DNA from: Saccoglossus kowalevskii
Lineage: Eukaryota > Hemichordata > Enteropneusta > Harrimaniidae
Reading direction: 5' to 3'
Assembly: GCF_000003605.2 (NCBI RefSeq)
Contig: NW_003123425.1
Span: forward strand, 81,849 to 103,401
DNA length: 21,553 nt
Shown: positions 3,806 to 21,553 of the stretch, piece by piece
How the letters are laid out: each line of letters opens with the position of its first letter
Numbering within the stretch: position 1 is the stretch's first letter
Translations under genes and position numbers: made by a program
Notes under the pieces: generated by a model
What the model saw: only the letters and a program-made list of their open reading frames with translations
What the model was told of the DNA's origin: nothing
The model's database searches: none

Positions 3806-4152
3806 CAATGGAACCTGACAAGGGGTCCAGTAATGCAGAAACGAATCAAGATTTAATCGGTGAATCTGATGTCAGACGATGGGGACACAAAAATAATTTA
3901 AAGCAGTCAACGATTGATGCCCTTCTTAAAGAAGGTTTTGACTGTATACCTGCATTACAAGTAATGGAGAAACAAGATGCAGATGCATTAAATATCAATG
4001 AAACTAGGACAACGCCGTCTTCTTCTACGGGCTTTGGATAATCTAACTACACGAGAACCAACAAGCCGAACATTTCTAGCGAATTTGAAACGTATGGCAA
4101 CAATGCGATTCAACTACCTGTTTGTCAAACTTATCTACAGCAATAGAAGGCA
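3806..4152 (+). pseudogene. SAM-like exon of unit 0, frameshifted
   Basis: After an acceptor (…tatag, 3801-3805) the frame reads AMEPDKGSSNAETNQ, then a SAM-like domain: VRRWGHKNNL, STIDALLKEGFDCIPALQ and DADALNI. Relative to the SAM exon at 7977-8192, an extra four bases (about 3997-4000, AATG) push the last helix (KLGQRRLLLRALDNL) into another frame, opening at 3998. The donor used by the other copy (GAAG|GTATGT) is absent at the matching place. The next good donor is GTATGT at 4153. SAM domains usually form protein-protein polymers or heterodimers. This is probably the 3' remnant of a third paralogous unit, or a stray duplicated exon. No DED, TRADD-N or coiled-coil exon of the same unit is visible upstream. 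Confidence 0.6.
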
Positions 4153-4612: not shown

Positions 4613-4820
4613 ATACAATGTACAAATTGAAGTCGTTGTGTCATGATATCATAGACCGTACTGTTATTGAACAATGTCAACACGCATCGCAACTAATACT
4701 AGCGCTCAAAGATGCTGGATTGGTAAGAGTTGATAACGTAGCCGAATTAGTTAAGTTCTTTGAATCTGGAACGAGATCTGGTCAATGAAACTCAGGAATA
4801 TGCAAATAACCACTGCCAAG
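4613..4820 (+). pseudogene. Unit A: DED exon, frameshifted
   Basis: The exon lies between tgatttacag and a GTGTGT donor. It encodes DED helices 2-6: YKLKSLCHDIIDRTVIEQ, ASQLILALKDAGLVRVDN and VAELVKFFESG. This follows the DED pattern, including a 'Leu-x-x-Ala-Leu-x-x-x-Gly-Leu' helix 3/4 region. One extra base near 4765-4772 sends the frame to a TGA at 4786. In the corrected frame the domain ends ERDLVNETQEYANN, matching VDEYANR in unit B, and then reaches the donor in the expected phase 1. Length is 208 nt against 219 in unit B. DEDs make homotypic contacts in caspase-8/FADD-type complexes. No certain helix-1 exon is seen upstream. Confidence 0.7.
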
Positions 4821-4858
4821 GTGTGTAACATTGTGACACAGGTTATCATGAGGTTAGA

Positions 4859-5278
4859 TGTATAATAAAAAAGTTTATTACGAGAATACGAGAATAAGTA
4901 TGCACGAAGAAAGTGCAGCTGGAGAATCGACCGACGCGCAGCGGAGATCGATGCGCGGCGTACTGTCTGAGTGCATAATTCGAGGTATTCTCGTAATAAC
5001 CTTATTATTATACATCTTTTTCTTCCAAGGATACACCATTGGAATGCCGAAATTCAAAATGTTTAGAACAGAATCAGCGAACTTCTTTGTGTGGAGTTCG
5101 GTCAAACTCTGGTGGCAGCCATATTTGTTTTTATTATTAGGGGACGCTTACGTGGGTAGTCATTCCATACGTGGAATTCGCATTTCCTAATATGTTAGCA
5201 TGAAAATACTCCGTAAAATACCGCAAAATTACGGCACACTGTAACTTATGGCGTTACTGTGACAGATGTATAATAATG
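4859..5278 (+). mobile_element. Dispersed repeat, foldback type, copy 1
   Basis: Two parts are visible. At 4859-4889 and 4985-5014 are inverted arms of about 30 bases (tgtataataa…ttacgagaatac) that would fold into a hairpin around a GC-rich loop region. From 4997 to 5278 the sequence matches, with opposite orientation, the last 283 bases of the window (21271-21553), by eye at roughly three quarters identity or better. The open frame across it (4858-5190) is not conserved in the other copy, so I treat it as non-coding. It sits in the unit A intron after the DED exon. A MITE or other non-autonomous element is likely; the family is unknown. Confidence 0.75.
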
Positions 5279-5365
5279 ACTTTTACTCTGTACCTGCTCA
5301 CGTCAGTTCACGTTTGTCCATTCAAATCATATGTAGAATAATGATAATTTGTTCAACATTTACAG

Positions 5366-5422
5366 AATTAAAACAACGCTCTGACGAAGGAAACATATCA
5401 TATTTCAAGATGCCGTGTTTTG
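5366..5422 (+). CDS. Unit A: 57-nt linker exon
   Basis: The exon runs from acceptor …catttacag to donor TTTG|GTAAAT. With phase 1 at both ends it reads LKQRSDEGNISYFKMPCF. Unit B has an exon of the same length and phase (19586-19642) reading LKQGFDDNDIEYFKTPCC, which supports a real exon. It joins the DED to the TRADD-N-like region. No known motif; the aromatic 'YFK-x-PC' core is the conserved part. Confidence 0.8.
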
Positions 5423-5860
5423 GTAAATAACAATATTACTCTTTATCGTACATGTTTCTTACTTATTTTACAAAAGGATAATTTCGTAAATTACACAAAA
5501 GCGTGTAAATCGGACACTAGCACTATACATCATTGTTCATCTTAAAAATTGTTATTGGCGTAGTAAAAGTTGGATCGGGGCGATGTATAACAATATCATT
5601 ACAAGCATACCGCAAAGTGTGCAATTTATTCTATACTTCAGTTACAGTATCAGGTTTAATGATGTTTCATTATACATCATTAACTTGTTCTTATAGTTAA
5701 CTACCAATCATGGACAAGGTGTTAGATGGCTTAATTACGCGTACTTTTGGTACTCAACTAATTATAAGCTTTTGCACTGTTGTCTATATTAAAGTTTCAT
5801 TGTAGTATGACACCTAGACACAGGTAACTATATAATAACTATATAATAATTTTACTGCAG

Positions 5861-6223
5861 ATATAACCCTCCTTGTTAAAGTGAGTGATGTACATCAGGC
5901 GGCATTTTGTGAACAAATGAAGAAAATCAAAGCAAACCCATCATCAGCAAATGAAAAAATGAAACAAATCCAAGAAATAATGGATAAATTTAAAGTTCAC
6001 TTGATTGAAATTAAGATGTCTAGCGTAAAATTTATTGTGAGATGTCGAAGAATGTCAAGCCTGAGAGTTTTAAAGAAAGGTGTACAATCCGGTAAGATGG
6101 GCAAACTATTAACCCCTGTCTTAGTTACAGCCAAATTGAAAGAAATCATGAACGCTGAAGACATTGAAATATCTGTCAATGTGGATCCAAAGCAGTTTGA
6201 AGACTGTGAACGATATTTTAAAG
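5861..6223 (+). CDS. Unit A: TRADD-N-like domain exon
   Basis: The exon runs from acceptor tttactgcag to donor AAAG|GTATGT and is phase 1 at both ends. The first third is a charged helix (EKMKQIQEIMDKF). The rest is a compact alpha/beta domain: VKFIVRCRRMSSLRVL, SGKMGKLLTPVLVT and IEISVNVDPKQFEDCERYF. This fits the pattern I know for TRADD-like N-terminal domains of invertebrate adaptors: strand ending in Cys, helix, 'SG-x-L/M', 'VT', strand, then 'D-x-x-x-x-x-x-C'. In vertebrate TRADD this domain binds TRAF2; the partner here is unknown. The exon is 10 codons shorter than in unit B, all near the start, and has no frameshift. Identity to unit B over about 70 core residues is about 84%. Confidence 0.8.
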
Positions 6224-6435
6224 GTATGTTGCGCAGTACTTCGATAGTAGATGTATAACTCAAATTTAAACAAATGAAATTACATTAAACAACTTAGTGA
6301 TTAGTGTCCCAATGTTGACAGGCCATACAGCGTTTATAATCTGATCGGACACATGCATGTGATGTTGTTTTTATTTCAGATGTATTTAACATGGGTTCAT
6401 CATTACTTTGACAATGTATTCTCATTTATTTTTAG

Positions 6436-6900
6436 AATTTGAAAGCTTGGAAAAAATATTTTCTATGGGACGAAAACAACGTTTGGTGAATCATAAAGTC
6501 CTGGAATCATTGAACCCACATTTCACGAGACTACCAAGCCAAAAGGACATACGCTCATTCGGAGAACACGTGATCGATCGAAGAATGAAGCAATTAGGAA
6601 AAGACCGTCTTACACTTCGTAATTCATCAAACCAATATCTGCAGCAGAAGCTAGGCGACCAAGAAAGAAGCAATACACATGATGTATCTGCACTAAAATA
6701 TGAAGTGGAAGCAAAGCAGAAGATGATTAACAGCTTGGAAGCTGAAAAAAATCATCAACGACCAACTAAAACAAGTACAGCAAGAGTGTGATCAAAAACA
6801 TATCACAGTATTAAGTGAAAGGACGATTCACATACAGAAATTAGAAAATCAGCTGAAAATGAAAAACAAAAGCAAATCTATGCGGGAGTCTGATTCTGAG
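6436..6900 (+). pseudogene. Unit A: coiled-coil exon, frameshifted
   Basis: The exon runs from acceptor cttatttttag-type (…atttttag) to donor GATTCTGAG|GTAACA. It encodes FESLEKIFSMGRKQRLVN, RLPSQKDIRSFGEHVI and a coiled coil. Compared with unit B, two bases are missing near 6750-6752, so the frame reaches TGA at 6789-6791. The downstream sequence still matches unit B (QLKQVQQECDQKHI and KLENQLKMK) in the lost frame. Unit A also lacks 105 nt (35 codons, in frame) that unit B has after QLKM, and has 36 extra nt (12 codons, around NQYLQQKLGD). The donor lies at the same place in both units. Confidence 0.75.
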
Positions 6901-7358
6901 GTAACATAATAATATACAATTATACCATCCCATATTTCAGTGCAATAATATTAGGTTTCCATGAGAATGCAGCTTTTTACAGAACGGCAAACCTTTTTGT
7001 CTTCAGTCTTAGCTGTATGATAATTTCCGTTATCTCAATAGAAGCAGGAAGTGACCTTCTGTCTAAATTTTTTTTTTAAATTTAATTTGTAATCCAATGA
7101 TACATGAATATATGCAAAGTGTAAACATTATGACCTACTCATGCGCAGATTATGGAATATGTATAGATTAGATTAAATGCTACGGATTTGGATACATAAC
7201 AATTATACGGATACAACACGTAAACTATCACGGCAATCAGGCATTTTTTAAGAAGTTGATACTAGGAGAAATATTGTCTAAAATTGAAGAATTGAGGGGT
7301 TCGACATGAAATGTGACAAATCTGAGGTAGCATCAAATGCAATTTGTTTATTTCACAG

Positions 7359-7389
7359 GAACAAATTATGGTTGCTGATGATGTAAAAG
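7359..7389 (+). CDS. Unit A: 31-nt mini exon
   Basis: The exon runs from acceptor tttatttcacag to donor AAAG|GTACGA. It takes phase 0 from the coiled-coil exon and returns phase 1, reading EEQIMVADDVK. Its value is in the phase: it converts the 0-phase end of the coiled-coil exon to the phase 1 needed by the SAM exon. It has no counterpart inside the window for unit B, which is cut off before this point. Confidence 0.5.
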
Positions 7390-7976
7390 GTACGAACACA
7401 TTAATTGTTCAATTTGCACGCAGCTATTACATTATTTAATACATGTATACATATTGTATAGGTCATGATGTAGATATTAAATTGGTAATTTACACACAAG
7501 TCAGTAAAATACATGAATATAGGCATTCATATAGAAAGTCTTCATATATATATATAAGTACATTATGCTGAACATATATTTAGGACTTCATATAAATAGT
7601 ATATTAGTAAACCTGCATACATTTCACTGAATTATACTATAAATTTCATATTTGCATGCGATAATTTACGCTGCAACAAATCTTCGGACTTTCTCATATA
7701 TATGCACATGGGCAGATTGGGTTAGAAATGTAGGTCGCATGGTAAACTTTAATCTTATCAAATAGTTCTGGCGGGATATATGTATAGATATTTTACCACT
7801 GCATGTATACTGGTACATTACATTCAAGAATATATAAGTAAAGCGATTAATTTTAATTAATTGTTCATTGGTTATGTTTAAGCGAACTAACTGACTTCTC
7901 CATATCATCAATGATTAGTTATAAATAGATTTGTGGTCTGATTTCAAATAAATTAGTTTTTCATGTTACATGACAG

Positions 7977-8192
7977 AAACTGACAGATCAAGCATGGCAG
8001 AATGTGAAATTAGGCGATGGGGGCAAAGTCATTCTTTACTGACTTCAACGATTGACGTTCTTCTAGAAGGAGGCTATGACAGTATTCCTGCTTTACAAGC
8101 AATGGTAAAAGAAGACGTAGATGCATTAGATATAAAATCTGGGCAACACCAACTTCTTCAACATGCATTGAATAAACTAACTAAAGATGAAG
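7977..8192 (+). CDS. Unit A: SAM-like domain exon
   Basis: The exon runs from acceptor gttacatgacag to donor GAAG|GTATGT and is phase 1 at both ends (216 nt). It encodes CEIRRWGQSHSLLTSTIDVL, EGGYDSIPALQAM, VKEDVDALDIKSGQ and LLQHALNKL. The order 'W…L…L…G-Y/F-D…L…D…L-x-I…G…L…L' is that of a SAM domain. In this family SAM usually mediates oligomerisation. The frame is intact, unlike the copy at 3806. The donor phase fits two downstream exons equally, 8341-8480 and 8793-10262. Confidence 0.72.
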
Positions 8193-8340
8193 GTATGTTT
8201 ACAATATTACGTAATAAGCAATATGAATGCCCAAAACACAAACTATTGTAGATGATAATCGGCACGTTGTCGCTACCAGATCGTAGCCCTGATAAAGCTA
8301 TTACATTGGCATGCACTATTATTTCACTAATAAATTGCAG

Positions 8341-8480
8341 TTGATAACTTTGTACTGTTCCAACCATCTCGATTTAATTCTTCTCTATTACATCTTTCTA
8401 TTGAAAGACGACGTGAACGTTTAGAAATTCGAAATAGAGTTTATAACAACTTAAATTGGAATGGTTATCACTCATTGTGA
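8341..8480 (+). CDS. Unit A: short alternative terminal exon
   Basis: After acceptor aataaattgcag, phase 1 joins the SAM exon (…LTKDE-V-DNFVLFQPSR) and continues SSLLHLSIERRRERLEIR to a TGA at 8478-8480. The tail is Arg/Glu-rich and likely helical; I do not recognise it. ATTAAA (8531) and AATAAA (8539-8544) follow the stop by about 50-60 bases, as expected for a last exon. Using it would give a protein without LRRs; skipping it would reach the LRR exon in the same phase. Confidence 0.5.
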
Positions 8481-8538
8481 TGTGAAAAGTATTATGATGA
8501 ATTGTTTTAATATTAGATTTGAAAAAATGGATTAAATG

Positions 8539-8544
8539 AATAAA
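8539..8544 (+). terminator. Poly(A) signal AATAAA for the short terminal exon
   Basis: AATAAA about 58 bases after the stop at 8480, with an ATTAAA variant eight bases earlier. T-rich sequence follows ('cctttctttt'). Confidence 0.45.
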
Positions 8545-8792
8545 ATGAAATCATTAACCTTTCTTTTGAAATTAGCAAGATGAATTCAACATTTTGCTTT
8601 CGAAGTTTTAGCACATAACCTTACACAGGCGGCGTATACCACCATGCCACAGCATTATTTCATCTTACTAATAACATCACCCGCTAGTGTGAAATGCGTG
8701 GATATGCTTTCTAATCATGGACATTATACACACTGCGACTGTATACTTCATCCCAGAGTCCCATTATATTAATTAATATATTTTGTTTGTAG

Positions 8793-10262
8793 GACCATAT
8801 TCTGGAACTATATCCCCGACATGGAATGAAAAAACTAAGATATTTCATGCACATAACCTGGAACTAACCGCGGTGCCAGAGGAACTTTTGACAATATATC
8901 CAGCATGCACGCAAAGTACTATTACAGACAAACAAATTGTCCACTTTGCCAAATACTGTAAGCAAGCTACAACAGTTGCAGCATCTAAACCTGAATTTTA
9001 ATATTCTTACATCACTTCCTGATTCCATCGGCGATCTACATCAACTTTCTACTTTGGATGTGGGTTCTAATAGATTGGAATTTATTACCTGACAGCATTG
9101 GCGATCTACAACAACTCTCTACCTTTGATGTGCATAATAATAGATTGAAATCTTTACCTGATAGCATCGGCAATCTGTTCCAACTTAGTTATTTGGATGT
9201 GCATAATAATATATTGGAATCATTACCTGATAGCATCGGCAATCTTCCCCAACTTACTTACGTGGGTGTGGGCACTAATAGATTAGAGTCTTTACCCGCC
9301 ATCATCGGCTATCTACACCAACTTACTAACTTGGATTTGCGTAATAATAGGTTAAAGTCCTTACCTGATAGCATCGGTAATCTCACAGACTTACTAACTT
9401 GGATGTGCATGATAATACGTTGCAGTCTTTGCCTGACAACATCGGCGATGTACACCAACTTTCTACCTTGAATGCAAGCACTAATAGCTTTCAGTCTTTA
9501 CCTGACAGCATCGGCAATGTACACCAACTTACTACCTTGAATATAAGCACTAATAGATTGGAGTCTTTACCTGATAGCATATGTAATATACAGCGTCTGA
9601 CAAACTTGGATGTGGGGCATAATTCATTGAAGTCATTACCTGATAAGATCGGTAATCTACATCATTTAAAACGCTTGGTTTTGCCAAATAATAAATTTAA
9701 ATCCTTTCCTAGCGGGGTTAGTAATCTACAGCAGCTCGTTCAACTATCCGTGTTTAATAACGCAATACTGGAGTTACCTGATAGCCTCGGGAATCTGAAA
9801 GAGCTTAAATTATTAGAAGTGGGCAATTGTAAATTAAAGAGTTTGCCTGAAACCATTGGTGAACTACATAATTTGACAACGTTAGATGTGCAAAGTAACG
9901 AACTCGAACAATTACCAGATAGTATTGGAAAACTGCTGCAGCTCAGGTCATTACGTGCGGACCGTAATCAACTGTCATCATTACCTGCTTCCATTAGCAA
10001 TCTAATAAATCTAGAGCAATTATATCTTGAAAACAATAAACTGATATCAATGCCCAATGTCAGAAATCTGAAGCAATTACGTTTTTTCAAGTTTAATGGA
10101 AATCATCTACAGTCACTGCCAAATGGTATTAGTCAATTACGTCAACTAACTTCGCTTCAGTTTGATGACATCGGTGATATAGGTGCTGTGAATATTAGCC
10201 ACAGTGAGAACGAGGTTGCTAAACTATTCAACAAACTATTCGGGTATCACTACGACCAATGA
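8793..10262 (+). pseudogene. Unit A: LRR exon, about 19 repeats, three frameshifts
   Basis: After acceptor attttgtttgtag, phase 1 fits the SAM exon. The exon begins PYSGTISPTWNEKTKIF and then enters leucine-rich repeats of about 23 residues, mostly of the form L-x-x-LPDSIGNLxQLxxLDV-x-x-N-x-L (short intracellular type, as in SHOC2, PIDD or LRSAM1). I count about 19, from LELTAVPEEL to FNGNHLQSLPNGI, followed by a polar tail ending GYHYDQ. The frame changes three times: +1 near 8911-8917, +1 near 9081-9088 and -1 near 9383-9390. After 9399 it is open to TGA at 10260-10262. No initiator Met, signal peptide or membrane segment is seen, so it depends on splicing from upstream and should be cytosolic. 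The middle repeats are nearly identical at DNA level, suggesting recent tandem expansion. Confidence 0.85.
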
Positions 10263-17573: not shown

Positions 17574-17679
17574 CAGAGAAGCAAATAGCTTAGGATGAGT
17601 TCCCATTCGAGTGTTAACGATGATGATGATGAAGCCTTTGCTTTTTTCATCGAGGAAATAGGTGCAGAAATAAAAGAAG
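17574..17679 (+). CDS. Unit B: first coding exon, DED helix 1
   Basis: The exon follows acceptor atatatttaacag and has a 21-base leader and ATG at 17595. It reads MSSHSSVNDDDDEAF then AFFIEEIGAEIKE and ends with donor GAAG|GTAAGT in phase 1. The Ser/Asp-rich start is probably flexible. The following amphipathic helix fits DED helix 1 (compare 'F…L…I…L' in caspase-8/FADD DEDs). I choose this ATG because it is the only one in the exon in the frame that joins the DED exon, and a spliced leader precedes it. Confidence 0.75.
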
Positions 17680-17833
17680 GTAAGTGATTTATAACAACTT
17701 ACAGAACTTCATGTATATATGAATATACCAATTGTTGATTTGAATAAATTTAGTTGTTAGTTCTACTTATACAATGTGTACAAAATTATATTAAATACAA
17801 ACAACCCGAAAGCCGATACACAGTGTGTGTGTG

Positions 17834-17895
17834 TACGCAGTCGTGTGATTGGGCACAATGCACAGACCTGTTAAGTTTCGGGTTCAAATCCCGGC
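17834..17895 (+). repeat. tRNA-like fragment, possible SINE head
   Basis: GGTTCAAATCC (17881-17891) is a near-perfect Pol III B box, inside a TpsiC-like stem-loop (CGGG-TTCAAAT-CCCG). TCGTGTGATTGG (17841-17852) resembles an A box at the right distance. Acceptor and anticodon stems do not close, so it is not a working tRNA gene. It may be a decayed tRNA or tRNA-derived SINE in unit B intron 1. Confidence 0.35.
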
Positions 17896-18074
17896 ATGAT
17901 AATTATCTAACTTGCATAAATTAGGCTATTTTTTATATTCACATATATCTTAATAACCATTCATATTATTTTACTGGGACTTGATAATGCTCTGGTCAAA
18001 TCAACTGCACCTCACATAACCATATATGGCCATATGGGTACATTAATATACATAATCTCAATATCTAATAATAT

Positions 18075-18231
18075 TTAAAGCGGGATGGTCGTCACCTGCG
18101 CACGCACGGGAATTGAGTCCCAAGCAACGATAACAACGCATGCTAAAACGCAATGGGTAGACGCTTGTTTGTAAACAATGACACGCTATGGCCATCTAAC
18201 GCATGCGCAGGTGACGACTCCCCCGCTTTAA
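18075..18231. mobile_element. TTAA-flanked MITE (piggyBac-like)
   Basis: TTAA (18075-18078) and TTAA (18228-18231) flank a 149-bp element with terminal inverted repeats. The left arm starts AGCGGG and the right arm ends CCCGCT; 23 of the outer 27 bases match, including GTCGTCACCTGCGCA. A TTAA duplication is the hallmark of piggyBac-type insertion. There is no transposase, so it is non-autonomous. It lies in unit B intron 1. Confidence 0.75.
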
Positions 18232-18615
18232 TGTATCCGACAAATGATAAGACTAAAATAACAGATATCCATCTATAGTAATGAGGTCTCAATAATAGAC
18301 AACTGTAGATATGCAAGTGAAATGTGAAATGAAATGAATGCTATATGTACCTCGAATATTGCACAGATTTTTTTCTAAGCTTTATTTAAATTGTAAGTTG
18401 TTATTGAATACCAATATAGTTAGATCTCCGGACATTTAATTTGTTCATAACAAAGAACCCTTGGTACTTCAAACTAGATATCATAATACACATAATACAG
18501 TGCAGGAAACTGTTATGGTAAGTTAGTAGTGTAAATAGGTTTAGTGAATAGAGACTTAGCAATAATTAATATATTATTAGTAATATTTTGAACATTATTT
18601 TGCTTGTCTTCATAG

Positions 18616-18834
18616 ATGCATTTCAAAGGATGAAACGTCTGAGTGGATGTAAATTGTCACAAGGGAAAATCGAAACTATAACAGCACCTGCGGAACTGAT
18701 ATGGGCACTTGTAGACGCAGACAGTATATCTCAGTGTAACCTGTGTTTTCTGTCAAAAATGTTAAAGAGCGCAAGTCAATTTAAACTCGCCAAACAAGTG
18801 GATGAATATGCAAATCGTTGTGGTGGTAATATAG
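18616..18834 (+). CDS. Unit B: DED exon
   Basis: The exon follows acceptor tgtcttcatag, ends with donor ATAG|GTAAGT, and is phase 1 at both ends (219 nt, residues 29-102). It encodes DED helices 2-6: FQRMKRLSGCKLSQGKIE, PAELIWALVDADSISQCN, LCFLSKMLKSASQFKLAKQ and VDEYANR. With helix 1 on the previous exon, the whole DED spans about residues 13-95. The helix 3-4 region 'L-x-x-AL-x-x-x-x…N-L-x-F-L-x-x-x-L' is typical. The 'RxDL' motif of many DEDs is not kept (QFKL here). The frame is intact, unlike unit A. A homotypic adaptor role in caspase or NF-kB type signalling is inferred from the family. Distant alternatives are other death-fold members (CARD, PYD, Death). Confidence 0.75.
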
Positions 18835-19455
18835 GTAAGTGCAGACAATTTTGTGTAGGAAGAGATGTATCTATTCGTAATCAAGTATCACAATTTGTGA
18901 ACTACAATTACTAGACCAAGAGCACAACAAATGTGACGTATTGTATGTGACGTTTAATTGACGTATATGGGTATGGTCATAGAAGTCAGGAATGGCACGT
19001 ACACTGAACTTATGCCATACATACATTTTAAGGATGAAATCACTAAGAATTTGAAGCATTTGAGCATTTTCTGTTTCAAATTCAATTGAAATTGGAAACC
19101 AGACCAATTGACCGATCAAGACAACCTTGTCAAATATGATGCACTTGACCCATATATAATACAAAGCAAATGCCAATTCGATCGAAAGTTTTGAAGGAAA
19201 AGATTAAATTTAAGCGTTTTGTATTTTAGTGATTTTGATAAAACTTATTTAGAATAGAATTTGGTGGCTAAGGTGTCTGATTACTAAGATTTGTATTCGT
19301 GAAAAAAGTAGTCCGTATATTGCAACAATCATTTAAAAATATGGCAAACCTATAAAGAATTGGAACTCTGTGGATTCTTAAAAAAACGTTTTAACTGGGA
19401 TAGGCTTTCTGAGTTGGAGTGGTGTGTCACAATCATGGCGAACTCTCTCACACCC

Positions 19456-19553
19456 TCACTCACTCACTCACTCACTCACTCACTCACTCACTCACTCACT
19501 CACTCACTCACTCACTCACTCACTCACTCACTCACTCACTCACTCACTCACCC
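19456..19553. repeat. (CACT)n microsatellite beside a splice acceptor
   Basis: About 24 CACT units, ending some 32 bases before the acceptor at 19585. The Ser-Leu-Thr-His polypeptide read through it is an artefact of the repeat. Confidence 0.97.
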
Positions 19554-19585
19554 ACTAACTCATAATATCTTTCCGATATTTACAG

Positions 19586-19642
19586 GATTGAAACAAGGCT
19601 TTGACGATAATGACATCGAGTATTTTAAAACGCCATGTTGTA
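19586..19642 (+). CDS. Unit B: 57-nt linker exon
   Basis: The exon runs from acceptor ccgatatttacag to donor TGTA|GTAAGT, phase 1 at both ends, reading LKQGFDDNDIEYFKTPCC (residues 102-121 with split codons). It has the same length, phase and core (YFK-x-PC) as 5366-5422 in unit A. Confidence 0.85.
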
Positions 19643-20098
19643 GTAAGTACGATCATTATTATGTTTAATCATTATTATACGCGATAATTGTTATTTTTAC
19701 TCATTATTATTTATAATCATTGTTATGGCAACCAAATTAGAATTAGGAATATCTACTACCACTTATCATTAATGTAACAAATCGAAATTTCGGAATACTT
19801 TTACACTAAACACAACTGCAAATCTTGATACAAGTAATACTACTAATACTACTATTGCCTGTCAATAGCTCACAGGCAAATTGTTATTACCTGTTTAGTT
19901 GTGTCAACATGTTCATTCGTGGGACTTCAAACTGATAAAACGTGTATCATTACTGTTTGAAAATACATCATATCTGTTTTTGTTGTTTGCTTTGAGTAAT
20001 TGATTCATTGAGGAAATGAGAAAAGATTTGTTCATACTCAGACATATTATGTTTTATTTGTGACTGTATAATAATTCATAATTGTGCTCTATTTTCAG

Positions 20099-20491
20099 AT
20101 ATCATCCTTCCAGTTGGCCTGAAAATTGGCGACAAGAGTAGTGTACATTTGGCGGGAGTGTATTCGGTTTTTCGTGAACAGATTGCAATAATAAAATCAG
20201 ATGACAAGATGTCAGCAAAAGAGAAACTAGAACAAATACGCCAAATATTCAATGATTTTAAAGTAGAGCTGAGTGAAATTAAGATGTCCATTGTCAAATT
20301 TATTGTGAAATGTCGGACAATGTCAAGCTTTAGAATTTTAAAGAAAGGTGTACAATCTGGTAAGCTGGGCAAACTGTTAACTCCTGTCTTAGTTACAGAC
20401 AAGATGAAAGAAATGGTGAACGGTGAAGACATTGAAATATCTGTCAATGTAGATCCAAAGCAATTTGAAGACTGTGAACGATATTTTAAAG
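20099..20491 (+). CDS. Unit B: TRADD-N-like domain exon
   Basis: The exon runs from acceptor gctctattttcag to donor AAAG|GTATGT, phase 1 at both ends (residues 122-251). A first part (IILPVGLKIGDKSSVHL and EKLEQIRQIFNDFKVEL) leads by helix into the alpha/beta domain at about 183-250: VKFIVKCRTMSSFRIL, SGKLGKLLTPVLVTDKMKE and IEISVNVDPKQFEDCERYF. The arrangement of a strand with Cys, helix, 'SGKL', 'VTDK', strand and Asp/Cys helix matches TRADD-like N-terminal domains as I know them. The fold is best known for TRAF binding by TRADD; the ligand here is unknown. The frame is intact. Confidence 0.82.
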
Positions 20492-20695
20492 GTATGTTGT
20501 CAAGTATTTCTATGTCGAGATGTATAACGCGTATTTACACAATTATATAGTAGTAGAGTATATTTAAGTAGGTATTTAGTCTGCTTACATTGGCAGTGCC
20601 GCACATTGTTTAGAATCCGTGTAATTGAAGGACACGGTGCGTGTAATGTGGCTAGTGTTGTTTTATTCTGACAATGTATTCTCACTTATTTTTAG

Positions 20696-21231
20696 AATTT
20701 GAAAGCTTGGAAAAACTATTTTCTATGGGGCGAAAACAACGTTTGGTGAATCATAAAGTCCTGGAGTCATTGGGCCCACATTTCACGAGACTACCCAGTC
20801 GAATGGACATACGCTCATTCAGAGAACATGTGATCTTTCGAAGTATGAAGCAATTAGGAGCCGACAATCGTACACTGAGACAGCTAGAAAGAAGCAAGAC
20901 GCGTGATGTAAGTGCACTCAGGCATGAAGTAGAAACGAAGAAGGCGATGATTAACAACTTGGAAGCTGAAAAAGATGTCATCATCGATCAACTAAAACAA
21001 GTACAGCAAGAGTGTGATCAAAAACATATCACAGTATTAAGTGAAAGGGAGATTCACGTGCAGAAATTAGAAAATCAGCTGAAAATGACAAACGACCTGA
21101 TAGCAAATATTCCACGAACTGATCCCGAATTAGCTACGAAATACAAGAGATTCAAGTCAGCCTACACAAAAAAACTCGAAGAGGTTCCGGATGAAAGCAA
21201 AACTAAATCTATGCGGCAGTCAGATTCGGAG
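20696..21231 (+). CDS. Unit B: coiled-coil exon, last visible exon
   Basis: The exon runs from acceptor cttatttttag to donor GATTCGGAG|GTAAGA, phase 1 in and phase 0 out (residues 252-430). It encodes FESLEKLFSMGRKQRLVN, LPSRMDIRSFREHVIF and then a coiled coil at about 311-388 (LRHEVETKKAMINNLEAEK, LKQVQQECDQKHI, KLENQLKM). The end is a charged segment with SMRQSDSE. Unit A has the same start and donor but lacks 105 nt after QLKM. By analogy with unit A, a mini exon and a SAM exon should follow outside the window. If unspliced, the frame stops at 21238-21240. Confidence 0.85.
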
Positions 21232-21270: not shown

Positions 21271-21553
21271 TTATTACATCTGTCACCGTAAGTTATATAT
21301 ATGTCATTATAAGTTACAGCGTGCTGTAATTTTGCGGTATTTTACGGGGTATTTTCATCATATCATATAAGGAAGTACGAATTCTAAATACGGAATGATT
21401 ACGCGCATAAGCGTCCTCTAATAATAAAAACAAACGTGACTTCCACCAGGATTTGACCGTTTGAAGTTTGCTGATTCTGATCTAAACTTTTTTCTATTTC
21501 GTCATTCTCATGATGTAACCTTGAAAGAAAAGATGTGTAATAATAAGGTTATT
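21271..21553 (-). mobile_element. Dispersed repeat, copy 2, inverted and cut by the window end
   Basis: Read on the minus strand this matches 4997-5278 nearly end to end. Shared stretches include aataaccttattatta, tttgtttttattatta, ggacgctta and taaaataccgcaaaattac. Open frames are not kept between copies. It lies in the unit B intron after the coiled-coil exon, a different place from copy 1, so the two arrived separately. The rest of the element lies beyond the window. Confidence 0.75.

Follow-up and report, generated by a model that had tools for sequence, protein, structure and literature searches.

The window analyzed here is a 21,553-nt stretch of animal-type DNA from the 572-Mb Saccoglossus kowalevskii genome (contig C1613, positions 81849-103401), and its exons lie on the plus strand. 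The original prediction concerned one exon series, between positions 4613 and 10262 of the window and hereafter called c1, and proposed that it encodes a single protein with a death effector domain (DED), a TRADD-type N-terminal domain (TRADD-N), a coiled coil, a SAM domain and leucine-rich repeats (LRRs). We found this exon series as described; that account, however, omits frame breaks within c1, a second copy (c2, 17595-21231), and a further SAM-like exon at 3808. On balance, the locus is best explained as a small tandem cluster of innate-immunity-type genes, in which a DED–TRADD-N–coil front is combined with an LRR end.

Copy c2 consists of exon 1 (17595..17679), which carries the start codon and probably the first DED helix, an open DED exon (18616..18834), a linker exon recognized by its splice sites (19586..19642), an open TRADD-N-like exon (20099..20491; 70% identical to that of c1), and an open coil-like exon (20696..21231). 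Joined, these five exons form a single open frame of 430 aa (1290 nt), and the gene apparently continues beyond the window. An intact LRR exon (L003, C1613:113467-114516) follows the c2 coil exon at a distance of 10.4 kb; it reads as a single frame of 350 codons, matches LRR profiles above cut-off, and shares both its leader and its phase-1 acceptor with the LRR exon of c1. We infer that this exon belongs to c2. Decayed TRADD-N and LRR fragments were noted approximately 1 kb behind it, hence copies in the cluster do decay. The readable part of 18 stretches of 10 kb from C1613 (nine of them complete; up to 203401, leaving out 60001-61848) yielded no further copy. A prokaryotic or viral origin of the window was rejected, given the 572-Mb genome and the lack of any relative of the A1 profile in genome or viral contig collections.

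Copy c1 is preceded by a SAM-like exon with its own ATG (SAM0, from 3808 to a putative end at 4030), which matches the second SAM-like exon of the locus (SAM1) at 1.9e-16 by tblastn. This is followed by a DED exon (4613..4820), a linker exon (5366..5422, phase 1-1) with 59% identity to the c2 linker over 17 aa, an open TRADD-N-like exon (5861..6223, phase 1-1), a coil-like exon (6436..6900), a candidate adaptor exon of 31 nt (7359..7389), the open SAM1 exon (7977..8192, phase 1-1), and a terminal LRR exon (8793..10262). The junctions proposed at 6223/6436, 7389/7977, and 8192/8793 appear to be real, as each has GT..AG ends and compatible phases. At the DNA level, c1 and c2 are 80% identical in the TRADD-N exons and 84% identical in the coil exons, and the ratio of nonsynonymous to synonymous substitution rates (dN/dS) between them is 0.43 over 260 codons (bootstrap 0.29-0.64), indicating that the exon series is no chance pattern and that both copies derive from constrained coding sequence.

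Proposed joining of the SAM and LRR exons to the front

The sequence is consistent with a SAM–LRR joint and with a five-domain chain running from DED to LRR. Alternatively, c1 might comprise two adjoining genes, one for SAM0–DED–TRADD-N–coil and another for SAM1–LRR, such that the five-domain protein was never one chain; we regard this as a possibility to be taken seriously, albeit not the one we would choose. Nearly all joints are in phase 1; the coil donors of c1 and c2, however, end in phase 0. SAM1 and the two LRR exons require phase 1, and the 31-nt exon, whose ends are canonical, converts exactly 0 to 1. Moreover, the intact LRR exon L003, which likewise starts in phase 1, also lies downstream of a coil exon. 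These observations speak for a single chain. On the other hand, the 31-nt exon is recognized by its splice sites and phase, is without independent support as a link between the coil and SAM1, and has no counterpart in the other sequence read. The readable 5 kb on the 5' side of the intact LRR exon yielded no SAM, and an ATG lies shortly before the domain in all three closely related SAM exons (SAM0, SAM1, and that of L022), as two separate genes would lead one to expect.

The third of these SAM exons belongs to the nearest relative elsewhere in the genome, L022 (C1348, minus strand), where SAM-, DED-, TRADD-N-, and coil-like exons follow one another in that order. Its SAM-like exon thus sits upstream of the DED, in the same place as SAM0, rather than before a sensor, which again favors two genes. 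We noted, however, that the DED–linker boundary of L022 is not spliced as in c1 and that its SAM exon has no obvious donor when read by eye; L022 may therefore itself be altered or spliced otherwise. Approximately 2 kb downstream of the L022 exons, on the same strand, is an IFIT-like tetratricopeptide-repeat (TPR) frame (L030:5126-5749, minus strand), which matches IFIT1 in the PDB at 9.7e-7 and is possibly the end of the L022 gene.

Frame breaks and mosaic make-up of c1

The exons of c1 had been taken to encode one open protein. This was rejected, because the frame is broken in the DED, coil, and LRR exons. The DED frame shifts near 4770, and the coil exon is 2 nt shorter than its c2 counterpart near 6747. 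In the LRR exon, homology places frame changes near 8900, 9084, and 9380: tblastn of the intact neighboring LRR exon onto c1 gave frames 3, 1, 2, and 1, that is, the same three changes, whereas a merely stop-free reading would need only two. Upstream, SAM0 is also broken near 4000, where a DNA alignment places 4 nt more than in SAM1. Since the readable exons of c2 and the neighboring LRR exon are intact, c1 is probably a young pseudogene, a recently broken member of the family, or else it carries assembly errors. No full-length product is expected from c1 itself.

The rival explanations considered in this study overlap, hence their probabilities need not sum to one. That c1 is a working gene, its frame breaks having arisen as errors in an uncorrected assembly, seems to us unlikely, though not far-fetched. 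We noticed no nonsense substitution within the open pieces of c1, which is slightly unusual for a pseudogene; like the dN/dS of 0.43, which reflects past constraint, this leaves room for such errors. The TRADD-N and SAM1 exons of c1 are also clean. By contrast, the breaks include a loss of 2 nt (coil exon) and a gain of 4 nt (SAM0), both beyond single-base slips, and indels of 1, 2, and 4 nt together argue for mutation over simple base slips. Furthermore, not a single break was found in the 1290 coding nt of c2 or in the 1050 nt of the neighboring LRR exon; the apparent excess of breaks in c1 over c2 is modest.

Whether pseudogene or not, c1 is a mosaic in the kinship of its exons. We compared seven copies each over 52 DED columns and 113 TRADD-N columns using FastTree; for c1, the 52 DED residues extend up to about the frame break. 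The c1 DED is 52% identical to that of L022 and 27% identical to that of c2, while the c1 TRADD-N segment is 72% identical to that of c2 and 56% identical to that of L022. When columns were resampled, c1 was nearer to L022 in 500 of 500 replicates for the DED, and in 1 of 500 for TRADD-N; the corresponding groupings received FastTree support of 0.959 and 0.994. Whichever copy received the sequence, these comparisons fit an exchange between paralogs at the level of exons, by gene conversion or recombination. The front end may also have been exchanged, since a SAM-like exon precedes the DED in c1 and L022, in contrast to c2, which has a helix-1 exon; no such exon was found near c1. We infer that the genes may swap exons with their paralogs and that c1 may survive only as a sequence donor. 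By extension, the locus might build motorless intracellular sensors by exon shuffling, with a phase-1 front (SAM, DED, TRADD-N, and coil), interchangeable ends (LRR, and possibly the IFIT-like TPR), and broken copies serving as donors. We offer this broader scheme as doubtful and speculative.

Identity of the encoded domains

The LRR identity is certain. The segment 9381-10259 matches at 6.6e-39, far above cut-off, and a pattern count gave 18 LRR cores in the interval 8931-10101, two of 20 rows having been dropped as chance-like overlaps; this is close to the approximately 19 repeats first proposed. The predicted DED was borne out as well, firmly so in c2. Single-exon matches to PF01335 (1.3e-5, 25.7 bits, for c1; 6.8e-8, 33.1 bits, for c2) fall below the curated cut-off of 35.9 bits, but joining c2 exon 1 to the DED exon raised the score from 33.1 to 38.1 bits. 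The c1 DED on its own remains below cut-off, while that of L022 scores 49 bits and lies above it. A PDB sequence search with the DED returned weak rows only (E 0.098 or worse), viral FLIP proteins among them.

SAM is the best reading found for SAM1 and a likely one, judging from sequence and a structural model. The Pfam matches to PF00536 lie below cut-off (E 0.093 for SAM1 and 0.079 for the L022 exon), and no SAM row appeared in Pfam for SAM1 scanned together with its neighbors, nor for SAM0. The SAM1 model has the helices expected of this five-helix domain (pLDDT 66). Its best Foldseek match is the SAM domain of ASK3 (E 0.88), and in a second look the titles of 17 of 47 rows named SAM; the Z values of these were middling, and rows for NusA and RAD51 ranked among the best. 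A PDB sequence search with the SAM segment also gave weak rows (E 0.098 or worse), including ANKS1B, SASH1, Caskin, and TEL. A genome-wide SAM search found four places, namely SAM1, SAM0, L022, and a weak one on C3724 (L034, C3724:15260-15451; 30%, E 0.008), which is a SAM-like match within a Ser/Thr-rich frame.

The TRADD-N assignment drew weak but family-wide support. The c1 exon alone matches PF20694 at E 0.1 (12.9 bits against a cut-off of 23.7), with no PF20694 row for c2 or for shorter pieces of either copy. A search of the same genome with the c2 TRADD-N query matched 10 places, c1 and c2 included, and a DED exon lies upstream in seven of these (c1, c2, L022, L024, L025, L027, and L028). 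We aligned nine of the 10, leaving out the decayed L023. Members of the TRADD-N superfamily have an RRM/ACT-like fold and carry a uS motif in the turn that connects strands 2 and 3 (PMC8195603), and a turn of the uS type was found in the family alignment: a tiny residue occupies the turn in all nine copies and is followed by Ser in seven, including c1, whereas c2 has Ile and L022 has Thr at this position. The flanking strands were taken from a poor model (pLDDT 45), whose predicted order of strands and helices fits TRADD-N. Three of the nine members match PF20694 with E values of up to 1 (best 0.0039), and it is the sole listed family matching more than one. The weakest match of the genome search, L029 (E 0.005), has a GS turn and scores 0.0073 with PF20694 (16.6 bits against the same cut-off).

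The L029 locus itself (C4098:10152 region) encodes a GT4-conflict glycosyltransferase (PF20706, 2.4e-22), then the TRADD-N segment, then a further unassigned frame at 2037-2522. The genome-wide family search matched PF20694 just once, in L001 (C3686:460449-460646), an NCOA6-like frame with glutamine runs in which PF20694 scores above cut-off.

Besides the lack of nonsense substitutions and the dN/dS of c1, several observations weigh against the tandem-cluster account. No tested member of the DED–TRADD-N family reaches the Pfam cut-off for TRADD-N, the fold model is the poor one mentioned above, and hhalign of A1 and A4 against the genome's NCOA6-like TRADD-N found nothing. The proposed coiled coil is present as a coil-like exon, but its heptad pattern is not significant, as 151 of 2000 shuffles were equally good in a simple test. 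In addition, the proposed connection of c2 with L003 passes through approximately 5 kb of unread sequence (C1613:103402-108377). A PDB sequence search with the TRADD-N segment gave weak rows and no TRADD match, and Foldseek listed no TRADD among the 50 matches displayed, nor in a second look, although the model is too poor for a verdict. It is nevertheless improbable that the segment belongs to some unrelated domain of alpha/beta or helical type. Scores below the Pfam cut-off, no TRADD match among PDB sequences, and a low-confidence model would all suit such a domain, but PF20694 stands alone among the families matched by more than one member, the search with c2 extends to the TRADD-N of L029, which has a GS turn and is linked to a GT4-conflict glycosyltransferase, DED exons recur upstream, and the predicted order of strands and helices is compatible with TRADD-N.

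Relation to known proteins and a possible mechanism

The original prediction did not know the combination of domains as a named family, yet the general class to which it belongs has already been described. Kaur, Iyer, Burroughs and Aravind (2021; PMC8195603) reported death-fold–TRADD-N proteins with variable C-termini, including DEDD2 and NCOA6 clades, from cnidarians, Crassostrea, brachiopods, echinoderms, hemichordates, cephalochordates, and a sponge. The death-fold is usually a DED, the proteins form multi-copy families for which shuffling was proposed, and LRRs are named behind SH3 in the sponge and in GT4 proteins (PMC8195603). The genes studied here appear to share with these marine-invertebrate proteins a constant death-fold and TRADD-N front and a variable C-terminus, and they have the uS turn. 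With the GT4–TRADD-N–LRR proteins (PMC8195603) they would share TRADD-N and LRRs, and this genome holds a GT4–TRADD-N locus of its own (L029), but they carry a DED in place of the glycosyltransferase. The word "SAM" is absent from the main text of PMC8195603, and a coil plus LRRs behind DED–TRADD-N is not in its sections 10 and 11, although it may be in the source data of Figure 4. Since the class as described includes LRRs, and SAM is absent from that main text, we view the present genes, within the open-licence literature searched, as a new arrangement of a known kind of protein. The differing kinship of the c1 DED and TRADD-N exons supports, at the sequence level, the domain shuffling suggested for the class.

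An adaptor front and an LRR sensor end are also shared with NLRs fronted by a DED or another death-fold. Unlike NLRs, and as the original prediction had it, no NACHT or NB-ARC row was present in the Pfam results for the exons scanned, which for c2 are those within the window. Among other proteins, LRSAM1 combines LRR, coil, and SAM in one chain, in an order reversed relative to the present gene, and has a RING; to our knowledge, it contains neither DED nor TRADD-N. PIDD1 joins LRRs of a similar type to death-fold signaling through ZU5-UPA and a death domain, neither of which came up in the exons scanned with Pfam.

If intact members do join DED, TRADD-N, coil, SAM, and LRR, they would constitute an animal NLR-like sensor in which the NTPase motor is replaced by passive oligomerizers, the coil and SAM. 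Going by the established roles of the named domains and the model of PMC8195603, the LRRs of an intact member might bind a microbial or damage signal, while TRADD-N, acting as a hinge that connects the front to the back, might hold the protein inactive. The protein could be clustered by the coil and, where it is joined, by SAM, and the clustered DEDs could recruit DED caspases or adaptors, leading to cell death or inflammatory signaling. Such a scheme would resemble that of an NLR, but with no nucleotide-binding motor. The small size of the cluster makes it accessible to testing.

For seven of the exons, NCBIfam listed low-score rows apart from the LRR exon, which matched bacterial LRR families, and Rfam and ARAGORN found nothing in the window; these results also entered into the rejection of a prokaryotic or viral origin. 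An element of 151 nt occurs at 5099-5249, in the DED–linker intron of c1, and again at 21309-21459, after the c2 coil exon; the two are 84% complementary and represent a dispersed repeat, perhaps a miniature inverted-repeat transposable element (MITE). Long simple repeats of the AAAT/AAAC and CACT types lie at 2440-2610 and 19440-19550, and a B-box-like stretch at 17827-17905 may be a tRNA-derived short interspersed element (SINE).

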